Assembly: GCA_030730585.1 (NCBI GenBank)
Contig: JANQUV010000009.1
Span: 40,080 to 104,079 of the forward strand
DNA: 64,000 nucleotides
Source: Haliea sp.
GTDB lineage: Bacteria; Pseudomonadota; Gammaproteobacteria; Pseudomonadales; Halieaceae
Direction: 5' to 3'
In this document: one piece after another, positions 44,125-47,576 of the stretch
Position numbering within the stretch: position 1 is the first letter of the stretch
Layout of the letters: the number at the start of each line of letters is the position of its first letter
Position numbers and translations under genes: made by a program
The notes under the pieces: generated by a model
What the model was told of the DNA's origin: nothing
Databases searched by the model: none
Seen by the model: the letters and a program-made list of their open reading frames with translations, nothing else

Positions 44125-44607
44125 TTATGCCTTATGCCAACTCGTGCAGCCCTTTTGCCCCGGGCCTGATGCAACGCACAGCTGAATTTCTCGCAAGTCG
44201 TCGCCCTCAGAGGCCAGCAGAAGTTGTTGTAAAAGGTAGCCGGAAAACTCTTCCACTGTGGCATTGCGCAGAGGCAACACGCGGGTATCGGATTTCAGAA
44301 ACAACATTTCTTCCTGCGCGAAGAACACCCGGTAGTAATCTCCCTCGTCCTCAATACGTTGAAACGGCGAGTCGCCAGCTAACACAAGGTACTCATCCAA
44401 TACATCACAGAGTGACTTCAAACGGCGCTTATACACGTTGTAATCCGCTGCAAAGCCATTATCCCCCATCGGCGCAACGATTTTTGCCGAAACAGAGTAA
44501 TTGTGGCCGTGCAAACGCTCACGCTCAGTAGCAGAGAATATAGTGAAATGCGCCGCAGAAAATTTGTGACTTTCCTTGTCGATGTACAGCGTGGTCAAAC
44601 GCTCCAT
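44125..44607 (-). CDS. 6-pyruvoyl-tetrahydropterin synthase/QueD family protein, atypical
   Basis: FSAAHFTIFSATERERLHGHNYSVSAKI zinc His set; no Cys at the QueD CxxxHGH position; start proposed at MERLTTL (RBS GGGAAAGAG). Confidence 0.85.
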   Translation of the reverse strand: MERLTTLYIDKESHKFSAAHFTIFSATERERLHGHNYSVSAKIVAPMGDNGFAADYNVYKRRLKSLCDVLDEYLVLAGDSPFQRIEDEGDYYRVFFAQEEMLFLKSDTRVLPLRNATVEEFSGYLLQQLLLASEGDDLREIQLCVASGPGQKGCTSWHKA

Positions 44608-44837
44608 AAACTCTTTCCCACCCATTGCTGTTGCATCATTGTTACGACTCTACGCACAATAGGCAAGGCTGGACCGCTAGCACAAAAAATCGCTGGCGCT
44701 GGTTACAATATTCTCCCTTGTTTTTTTCCAGCGCAAACTGATTCAAACCGGTATGCGTAAAGCCCATAGCGATACACCACGCCGAAGCTGCTATCCATGC
44801 CTGCTCGGACCAGACCACCACCTTTAGAGGACATTCC

Positions 44838-45539
44838 ATGTTGACTGCAATTATCACCGGCGCCAGTGTCGGCATCGGCCAAGCCACAGCACAACGTTTC
44901 CTCGGCATGGGCTATCGGGTTTACAACTTGTCTCGGCGCCCGTGCCCAGAGCCAGGCGTGGAGAATATTATTTGCGACCTGGCATCCGACGCATCCATCA
45001 ATTCAGCCTGCAGAAGGCTGCTACCCGTCATTGCCGACAGCGCCAAGGTCTGCCTGTTGCACAACGCCAGCCAGATGCGCAAAGACACTGCGGACCATTG
45101 CAACAGTGACAGTTTGCGAGCTGTATTGGAGACCAATGTGGTTGCGGTAAACAGCATCAACCAGCAATTGCTTCCCGCACTGCCCAAAGGGTCGAGCCTG
45201 CTGTACGTCGGATCAACCTTATCCGAAAAGGCCGTAGCCGGCTCCTTTAGCTATGTTCTGAGTAAGCACGCACAGTTGGGTATGATGCGAGCGACCTGCC
45301 AGGACCTGATGGGTAAAGGAATTCACACTGCGCTCATTTGCCCCGGCTTCACCGACACTGAAATGCTGCGCACCCACATTGGCAATAATCCCGAGGTGGT
45401 AGCTGCCATCGGCAGCATGAACGCTTATGGCAGGCTTATTGAGCCAGGGGAAATTGCAGGGCTCATCGTATGGGCTCACGGCAATCCGGTGATCAACGGC
45501 GCGGTCCTGCACGCTAACTTGGGACAAAAGGAAGCCTGA
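44838..45539 (+). CDS. SDR family oxidoreductase
   Basis: ITGASVGIGQATAQRFL, LLHNASQ, YVGSTLS...SYVLSKHA. Confidence 0.9.
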   Translation: MLTAIITGASVGIGQATAQRFLGMGYRVYNLSRRPCPEPGVENIICDLASDASINSACRRLLPVIADSAKVCLLHNASQMRKDTADHCNSDSLRAVLETNVVAVNSINQQLLPALPKGSSLLYVGSTLSEKAVAGSFSYVLSKHAQLGMMRATCQDLMGKGIHTALICPGFTDTEMLRTHIGNNPEVVAAIGSMNAYGRLIEPGEIAGLIVWAHGNPVINGAVLHANLGQKEA

Positions 45540-45540
45540 A

Positions 45541-46329
45541 ATGACACACGCTGTTATTTTATGGGAACGACGCGAACGAGTCTTTTTGGTGCTTGCGGGT
45601 ACCTTTCTTTGCGCCATGACCTTACTGAATGTCATCGGCATCACGCGCTTCATTCAACTTGGGCCCATGGCATTAGCGGTGGGGGTTTTACCCTACCCGC
45701 TGACCTTCCTTTGCACCGATCTGGTCTGCGAACTGTATGGTCGGGCACGCGCCAACTTTCTCGTCAGTGTCGGCCTGGGCCTCAATTTCTTTATCCTTGC
45801 CGTGCTGTTTCTGGGCGATGCGATGCCATCCGTCGGGCCAGAGTCCATGCCGCCCTGGCAAGTATTGCAGCTCGCTGAGCCGGTAGTGCTGCCCAATGGC
45901 GAGGTTGTCAGTAATAGCATTGGCCTCTATCAACTTATTTACGCTACCACCTCGGGCGCAGTCTTTGCCTCCATGCTGGCGTACATTGCCGCACAATACT
46001 GCGACGTTCAATTGTTCCACTTCTGGAAGCGCCTGACCCGTGGAAAATACCTCTGGGTACGCAACAATTTCAGCACGCTAATGAGCCAAATGGTCGATTC
46101 TGTCATGGTGATCACCGTCACCTTCGGTGCCGCCTATCTGCGCGGTGATATCGCTTTTCAGGCGCTACTGGTATTAATAGGCAGCAACTATTTATTCAAG
46201 GCCACTGTCGCCCTACTCGACACCGGCCCTTTTTACCTGTTGGTGCACTACCTGCGGCGCTACCTCGAACTGGGGCCCGAGGAGTACGCCGTGCCGGGCG
46301 GTAAATCAGATGGTGTTGGCAGCGGGTAA
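45541..46329 (+). CDS. VUT-family transporter (YhhQ/queuosine-precursor transporter-like)
   Basis: VLPYPLTFLCTDLVCELYGRARAN, NFSTLMSQMVDSVMVITVTFG, polytopic membrane. Confidence 0.88.
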   Translation: MTHAVILWERRERVFLVLAGTFLCAMTLLNVIGITRFIQLGPMALAVGVLPYPLTFLCTDLVCELYGRARANFLVSVGLGLNFFILAVLFLGDAMPSVGPESMPPWQVLQLAEPVVLPNGEVVSNSIGLYQLIYATTSGAVFASMLAYIAAQYCDVQLFHFWKRLTRGKYLWVRNNFSTLMSQMVDSVMVITVTFGAAYLRGDIAFQALLVLIGSNYLFKATVALLDTGPFYLLVHYLRRYLELGPEEYAVPGGKSDGVGSG

Positions 46330-46373
46330 CTCTATCGGCAGTGGCTGTCGGCCTAAGCGTTGGCCAGCGGAGA

Positions 46374-46390
46374 GTTACAAAGCGTTACAA
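46374..46390 (+). promoter_or_regulatory. direct repeat GTTACAA-N3-GTTACAA upstream of the response regulator
   Basis: gttacaaagcgttacaa, repeat starts 10 nt apart, with an inverted third half-site TTGTGTAAC at 46408-46416. Confidence 0.5.
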
Positions 46391-46461
46391 ACTGCCGCAT
46401 GTCATTTTGTGTAACACTATGTATCATGTTGCCTACCGTCCTGAGCCACACTGGAGACAGC

Positions 46462-47208
46462 GTGATCGCTGAACATATCCTTATCGTTGACGACGACGTA
46501 TTTCTTTGCAAAGTCCTCTGCTACCAGCTTAGCGTACGGAAGTACCACTGCGAGTTTGTCGAAACTTCCACTGCGGCACTGTCCCGGCTACAGCAAAAAC
46601 CTTTGCCCGACCTGATATTGCTGGACTATTCACTCAGGCCGCAGGACCTGAACGGCTTGCAACTGTGTAGCAAGATCAAAGCCGTCTGCGACCGCCCGGT
46701 GGTGATGCTAACCGCCAATGATGAATTGCGTACCATAGTTTCCTGCCTCGATGCAGGCGCAGATCAATACATCGTAAAACCCTACGACATTGAGGAACTC
46801 AGCGCCCGGGTACGCGCCGTACTCCGCCAGCGAGAGAGCCGCAGCACCAAAGTCGACGCGGCCGGGGCTATAGGGCTTCTGGAATGGGAAGCCTTGCAAC
46901 TCGACCCCCTGCAACGAACGCTGAGTGCTGACGGCCACGAAGTGGCACTGTCTGAAAAAGAGTTAGCCGTTTTGTCACTTCTCATGCGCAGCCCCGGCAC
47001 AGCAGTGAAGCGCAGTGACCTCTATAGCATCGTGTATGGCAGGGACTTTGACTCCATGAACAGAGCTATGGACGTGCTGGTTGGACGAGCGCGCAAAAAA
47101 CTGAAAGCACTGACCGAGAACTACAAAATACGCTCCATACGAGGCTCCGGTTATGTGTTACAACCAGTAAGAGCGCGTAAAACCACCACAGAAGGCACGT
47201 CGTCATGA
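46462..47208 (+). CDS. OmpR/PhoB-family response regulator
   Basis: HILIVDDDVF, LLDYSL, VKPYDIEEL, C-terminal winged helix DSMNRAMDVLVGRARKKL...IRSIRGSGYVL; GTG start proposed after GGAGA. Confidence 0.9.
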   Translation: MIAEHILIVDDDVFLCKVLCYQLSVRKYHCEFVETSTAALSRLQQKPLPDLILLDYSLRPQDLNGLQLCSKIKAVCDRPVVMLTANDELRTIVSCLDAGADQYIVKPYDIEELSARVRAVLRQRESRSTKVDAAGAIGLLEWEALQLDPLQRTLSADGHEVALSEKELAVLSLLMRSPGTAVKRSDLYSIVYGRDFDSMNRAMDVLVGRARKKLKALTENYKIRSIRGSGYVLQPVRARKTTTEGTSS

Positions 47209-47576
47209 CCACACATGCGCAGGCGTTTTTCGACAGTGCTCATCTGCCGCGGTCATTGGAGCTTGATGACTGGGAAATACTTGAAGACTTTTACCTTACG
47301 TTCTTACATCAGATACACGATTTCTTGTCACTCATTGAGGGAGCGACTTCTCACTTAAGCATTGAAGAACAGCGCCATCACGCCCACAAACTGGGATCGT
47401 CCTGCCGGACGGTAGGCGCGCCCACGCTGGCGGGCATGTTTGAGACGTTGGAAAACCTGTGCCGGAATGAAAATACGGATCAGCAGCGCGCAGCGCTGCT
47501 TGCAACCATAGCGAACATTGGGGAAGCGACTCGGGATCAGGTCGCATTGCATCTCGCTCACGCCGGCCGGACCTGA
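47205..47576 (+). CDS. Hpt (histidine phosphotransfer) domain protein
   Basis: HHAHKLGSSCRTVGAPTLAGMFETLENLC; ATGA overlap with the response regulator. Confidence 0.85.
   Translation: MTTHAQAFFDSAHLPRSLELDDWEILEDFYLTFLHQIHDFLSLIEGATSHLSIEEQRHHAHKLGSSCRTVGAPTLAGMFETLENLCRNENTDQQRAALLATIANIGEATRDQVALHLAHAGRT

Follow-up and report, generated by a model that had tools for sequence, protein, structure and literature searches.

A divergent PTPS-family protein and its linked partner genes suggest an undescribed branch of pterin metabolism in Halieaceae

The window, a 64,000-nucleotide stretch of a Haliea-like Halieaceae genome that is 90% complete, carries a gene of the PTPS (COG0720) family and, divergent from it, genes for a short-chain dehydrogenase/reductase (SDR) and a membrane protein, here termed SDR-A and VUT-A. 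The features are:

44125-44625, minus strand: PTPS/COG0720-family gene, 166 residues, of a PTPS-III-like lineage, in a subfamily of its own; motifs ERERLHGHN, LDE and VASGPGQ
44626-44837, no strand: intergenic region of 212 bp between the divergent genes, with presumed divergent promoters
44838-45539, plus strand: SDR-A, 233 residues, an SDR with Ser-Tyr-Lys intact; subfamily nearly limited to PTPS carriers
45541-46329, plus strand: VUT-A, 262 residues, a Vut_1/COG1738-type membrane protein; subfamily only in PTPS carriers

A preliminary description of this DNA had placed the same three genes here, and all three open reading frames were found, as was the Ser-Tyr-Lys set it assigned to the SDR (Ser126 and Y139xxxK143 in SDR-A, which also has GASVGIG). 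The stop codon of SDR-A and the ATG of VUT-A are one base apart (45540) rather than two as previously given, and with this spacing the genes are probably co-transcribed. Homologues of the PTPS-like protein begin at MERLTTL, so that the true start is probably Met7 (44607) and the coding sequence 44125-44607. Between 43900 and 46500 neither a riboswitch nor any other Rfam family was matched at E ≤ 5, and a riboswitch link to preQ1 or folate was discarded. Downstream of VUT-A (46360-47576) are genes for an OmpR-type response regulator and then an Hpt-domain protein; among the compared loci this pair occurs only in Haliea-type genomes, at variable distance.

The PTPS-like protein is a member of the superfamily, scoring 45.1 bits against Pfam PTPS (PF01242, cut-off 22.4), and falls below the cut-off of the QueD equivalog (NCBIfam TIGR03367, 41.6 against 89.25 bits). 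Active-site columns were counted over 50 subfamily sequences. The three zinc-binding histidines, Glu36, Asn121 and Glu125 are invariant, and the TxE site keeps its Thr123 and Glu125. The column of the QueD catalytic cysteine is occupied by arginine in all 50, extending to the subfamily what had been noted for the single protein, and no conserved cysteine is found nearby at a shifted but equivalent position. Upstream of HGH, the region of the PTPS-II CxxxxxHGH motif, the window protein has no cysteine and none is conserved across the subfamily. The glutamate at −3 from the first histidine, one of two remarked on earlier, is invariant, but that at −5 is present in only 36 of the 50. The earlier label of a protein without the cysteine is correct, but this is not in itself novel, since ExxHGH is the published signature of PTPS-III, CxxxHGH being that of QueD and CxxxxxHGH that of PTPS-II (PMC5041015). 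The subfamily motif, ERLHGH, conforms to ExxHGH, and Glu36 falls in the alignment column of Glu37, the catalytic residue of the Plasmodium enzyme; the PDB entries 3m0n and 3lze, titled as the E37A and E37C catalytic residue mutants of the P. vivax enzyme, concern this same place.

In the PTPS family an Asp-His pair works with the cysteine, and the glutamate found in VSES of Plasmodium PTPS anchors the pterin ring. The combination of Asp-His pair and pterin-anchoring glutamate seen in Plasmodium is absent from all 50 sequences. The catalytic histidine column (position 78) is never histidine, being glutamate in 39 members, and the column of the VSES glutamate (position 153) is never glutamate but serine in 46, threonine in three and alanine in one. 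Sister types (L165, L169) retain this glutamate, though with glutamate at the catalytic histidine column, and the Glu-to-Ser change therefore marks the present subfamily. As judged from the alignment, the unusual features are the lost anchor and the lost catalytic histidine rather than the loss of cysteine.

By sequence, the solved structures nearest to the protein are those of Plasmodium PTPS (PDB codes 1y13 and 2a0s, profile E-values down to 2e-29), at about 25% identity. An AlphaFold model of the PTPS-like protein, prepared with 31 sequences and with a mean pLDDT of 91.9, also matches Plasmodium PTPS best, with TM scores of 0.85-0.89 as opposed to approximately 0.5 (by query length) for QueD. 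In a phylogeny, a check that the preliminary description had proposed, the subfamily forms one group with support of 98/94 and Plasmodium PTPS falls outside it; long branches were flagged, which leaves the deeper placement unsure. The subfamily might correspond to PTPS-V (Phillips et al. 2012), the function of which was called unclear in 2016 (PMC5041015).

Within the genus the PTPS-like protein is 87-91% identical and it occurs in 34 of 36 other genomes searched from the same genus or family, the two that gave no match being 83% and 91% complete. It is thus not a chance reading. The subfamily is present in a minority of the order's other families and in scattered families across the class, where scores are split between the subfamily itself (approximately 170-274 bits), its nearest sister (118-124), related ExxHGH proteins (75-94) and QueD-like proteins (below 45). 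A phylum-wide search of 399 genomes returned the window genome as sole carrier, and among the genomes searched the subfamily is found only in Gammaproteobacteria. Genes for some of the related ExxHGH proteins (L167, L168, L172) cluster with those for dihydropteroate synthase-like and MfnB-like proteins, as in methanopterin/methanofuran synthesis.

Twenty-six other Halieaceae were compared over stretches of at most 16 kb; SDR-A is present in 25 of them and VUT-A in 24. The flanking genes for an M3 peptidase, a DEAD helicase and an indolepyruvate oxidoreductase are also conserved within the family, so the linkage seen there could by itself reflect shared ancestral gene order. Outside Halieaceae those flanks are lost and the module is kept in new arrangements: PTPS and SDR-A are a divergent pair or stand in tandem, 4-63 bases apart, or the genes follow one another as PTPS-VUT-SDR on one strand. 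We then compared 80 genomes picked for having or lacking the PTPS subfamily, 39 carriers (the sister-type genomes G276 and G160 included) and 41 non-carriers. SDR-A is present in 27 carriers and one non-carrier (Fisher p = 6e-11) and VUT-A in 19 and none (p = 6e-8), values that do not correct for the tree; with one genome per family the association persists (SDR-A 13/22 against 1/40, p = 7e-7; VUT-A p = 3e-4). In 24 of the 27 genomes no more than 811 bases separate SDR-A from PTPS, and two of the other three have the genes split over contigs or located elsewhere, situations that are indistinguishable. The lone non-carrier homologue of SDR-A (G074) adjoins apparent acyl-CoA dehydrogenase and thiolase genes and was set aside as saying nothing on pterins. 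Linkage beyond the window, on which the preliminary description had staked its proposal, is therefore borne out: the three genes are a real module, repeatedly re-assembled. Every genome with VUT-A also has SDR-A, and this strict co-occurrence with PTPS and SDR-A suggests a shared metabolite. Genes for MFS proteins are adjacent to or near PTPS in several families (L059:1287-2561, L061:4986-6203, L063:8699-9931, L157:8486-9703), possibly as a second transporter of the same product.

SDR-A is similar to generic FabG-type SDRs. The pteridine reductases FolM, PTR1 and PruA carry the motif TGxxxRxG (PMC13259868); SDR-A reads TGASVGIG, with Gly12 (invariant in alignment A2) at the position of the arginine, and by this signature it is not a FolM. 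VUT-A scores 141 bits against Vut_1 and 111.1 bits against TIGR00697, the queuosine precursor transporter model, above the cut-off of 50.95. One member of its family, YhhQ of E. coli, is involved in taking up preQ0 (PMC5372724). Both facts would fit a locus for 7-deazapurine metabolism, with the PTPS-like protein a second QueD or another deazapurine enzyme and VUT-A an importer of queuosine precursors. The YhhQ family is not homogeneous, however (PMC5372724), and against the curated preQ0/preQ1-transporter model (YhhQ equivalog) VUT-A scores 34 bits where the cut-off is 252. With the QueD cut-off missed and no riboswitch at the locus, this reading is further weakened by a canonical QueD (CERLHGH) encoded on another contig of the window genome (G000:C71:4696-5046; L066:4693-5148, minus strand), on which grounds QueD replacement was rejected for that genome. 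We judge a deazapurine locus to be very improbable, while accepting that VUT-A, by analogy with its family, could possibly have a deazapurine role. The CERLHGH motif of the canonical QueD is both CxxxHGH and ExxHGH, a published PTPS-I/III hybrid motif, and from this the enzyme might serve queuosine and folate together.

A search of the genome for queD and folE had been proposed at the outset, and for FolE it has two paralogues (G000:C10:110309-110842 and G000:C69:3376-3903). FolE is present in 33 of the 39 carriers and twice in most Halieaceae, where the paralogues score clearly differently (about 250 and 200 bits) and the second adjoins GAPDH-like genes. Assignment of this second FolE to the same cluster was rejected, since its neighbours in G000, G007 and G020 are, by eye, GAPDH, AMP-ligase and, in two of them, MFS genes, with no pterin gene. 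Most Halieaceae also have two HPPK (FolK) paralogues, one directly after folB (in the window genome G000:C79:728-1105 and G000:C125:7111-7494).

The distribution of FolB bears on whether the protein is simply an ordinary PTPS-III, converting dihydroneopterin or its phosphates to 6-hydroxymethyl-dihydropterin and so bypassing FolB in folate synthesis. The ExxHGH motif, the closeness in sequence and fold to Plasmodium PTPS and the methanopterin-type clusters of related ExxHGH proteins would all agree with this, as would two carriers with FolK and no detected FolB (G060 and, with a partial FolK, G081). FolB is nevertheless present in 35 of the 39 carriers, making a bypass unneeded, and as the main role it was rejected; the other two carriers that lack FolB also lack FolK. 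The anchor glutamate and catalytic histidine are altered, and a bypass has no place for a linked SDR and transporter. We therefore consider an ordinary PTPS-III improbable. With FolB so widespread, and with the window genome encoding its own canonical QueD, a separate role is indicated and replacement of either enzyme is unlikely.

Other gene neighbourhoods direct attention to pterins. FolM (NF006598) is usually adjacent to PTPS in carriers without SDR-A, and in seven of these it lies 1.2-2.4 kb away, with a gene for a MidA-type methyltransferase between or beside the two. A MidA-FolM pair is also found in other genomes that lack PTPS, which makes this adjacency weaker evidence than that of SDR-A. 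The PTPS gene of the nearest sister type (L165, L166) is grouped with those for FolB and a further SDR, and FolK is encoded several kilobases off. A second FolB-like protein above the cut-off, and so a FolX candidate, occurs in none of the 39 carriers and in seven of the 41 non-carriers. Phenylalanine hydroxylase (PAH) is present in 23 carriers against eight non-carriers, and 16 carriers, the window genome included, have no detected PAH. A divergent PAH of about 570 residues is restricted to 12 carriers, all with SDR-A (0/41 non-carriers), and adjoins tyrosine-catabolism genes in two of those neighbourhoods that were examined. In two aromatic amino acid hydroxylases of this length (L181:5763-7475, L184:6968-8698) the match to the Biopterin_H domain is broken into two pieces.

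The re-assembly of the module, the occurrence of FolM and MidA beside the same PTPS, and FolB and FolK near the sister type make a non-canonical pterin pathway the best reading. We infer, at even confidence, a side branch dedicated to a reduced pterin, comprising a PTPS-like step, SDR reduction and VUT transport. FolE would supply 7,8-dihydroneopterin triphosphate, and the PTPS-like enzyme, with zinc held by three histidines, Glu36 as general base and no cysteine, would rearrange or cleave the side chain of this compound or a dephosphorylated form. SDR-A with NAD(P)H might then reduce the product to a pterin that is neither a folate nor a queuosine intermediate, and VUT-A, in part of the carriers, could be the inner-membrane transporter of the reduced pterin or of a precursor. 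Fold, conservation of the zinc ligands and Glu36, linkage and co-occurrence are the sequence basis for this scheme; substrate, reaction, product, direction of transport and use are our proposal. In carriers with PAH and no detected FolX or FolM, the branch is a candidate source of the tetrahydropterin cofactor of PAH. Such a link is plausible in only some carriers, since the 16 without detected PAH show that PAH cannot be the only user. The earlier proposal was of a pterin or deazapurine module; the FolM, MidA, FolB and FolK contexts speak for its first half, and the separate queD, the lack of a riboswitch and the low YhhQ score count against the second.

The main doubt raised by the alignments is the lost anchor glutamate: the protein may bind its pterin differently or may have a different ligand, and with a catalytic histidine column that is never histidine the chemistry may also differ. 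The protein may have left pterins altogether: zinc and Glu36 would now act on a small keto-sugar or a heterocycle of another kind, or it would serve in binding or sensing, with SDR-A and VUT-A devoted to that metabolite. The loss of the anchor in 50 of 50 members is consistent with this, as are the position of the Halieaceae module, which is not beside known pterin genes, and an SDR-A that is devoid of the pteridine-reductase signature. The retention of Thr123 and Glu125, the proximity of FolM and MidA in other families and that of FolB and FolK to the sister type argue the other way, and we regard a departure from pterins as unlikely. A bolder form of the pterin branch is that the enzyme, with zinc, glutamate and an altered pocket, makes a new side chain that SDR-A completes, that VUT-A is a bacterial transporter dedicated to pterins and that the product serves PAH and possibly extracellular signalling. 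We consider this form fairly unlikely. A 2026 review states that no pterin efflux system is known (PMC13259868).

The module is real and widespread in its lineage, its function being a matter of inference, and no account of this gene set turned up in searches of the literature. The evidence suggests that in marine Halieaceae and scattered other Gammaproteobacteria it represents an undescribed branch of pterin metabolism. COG0720 proteins are often mis-annotated, and similarity alone would assign this subfamily as QueD or 6-pyruvoyltetrahydropterin synthase. It is clearly bounded, having its own active-site signature and partner genes, and the combination of ExxHGH, no LDH and SGPGQ allows annotation pipelines to separate it. 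If the pterin branch is correct it would explain how bacteria that lack FolX and FolM obtain the cofactor of PAH, and VUT-A would be a first candidate for a bacterial pterin transporter.

Comparison with known systems places the PTPS-like protein nearest to PTPS-III, the Plasmodium enzymes and the bacterial enzymes that bypass FolB, with which it shares glutamate as the base, the zinc histidines, a long insertion before the TxE site, a C-terminal glutamine and the fold. It differs in its low identity, replaced catalytic histidine and serine for the anchor glutamate, in hosts that keep FolB and in the linked SDR and VUT genes. PTPS-I/QueD shares the T-fold, zinc histidines and HGH motif, but has the cysteine, is distant in score and TM value and is encoded separately in the window genome. 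The tetrahydrobiopterin pathway likewise follows a PTPS-family enzyme, PTPS-II, with an SDR, sepiapterin reductase; here CxxxxxHGH is absent and the FabG-like SDR-A does not imply sepiapterin reductase identity. VUT-A belongs with the YhhQ/COG1738 preQ0 transporters (PF02592) by Pfam and TIGR00697, whereas its subfamily is confined to PTPS carriers and is far under the YhhQ equivalog cut-off. The FolX-FolM tetrahydromonapterin pathway differs in that carriers have no FolX candidate and SDR-A lacks the FolM/PTR1 arginine, but is alike in that FolM adjoins PTPS where SDR-A is missing and a non-folate tetrahydropterin would result.
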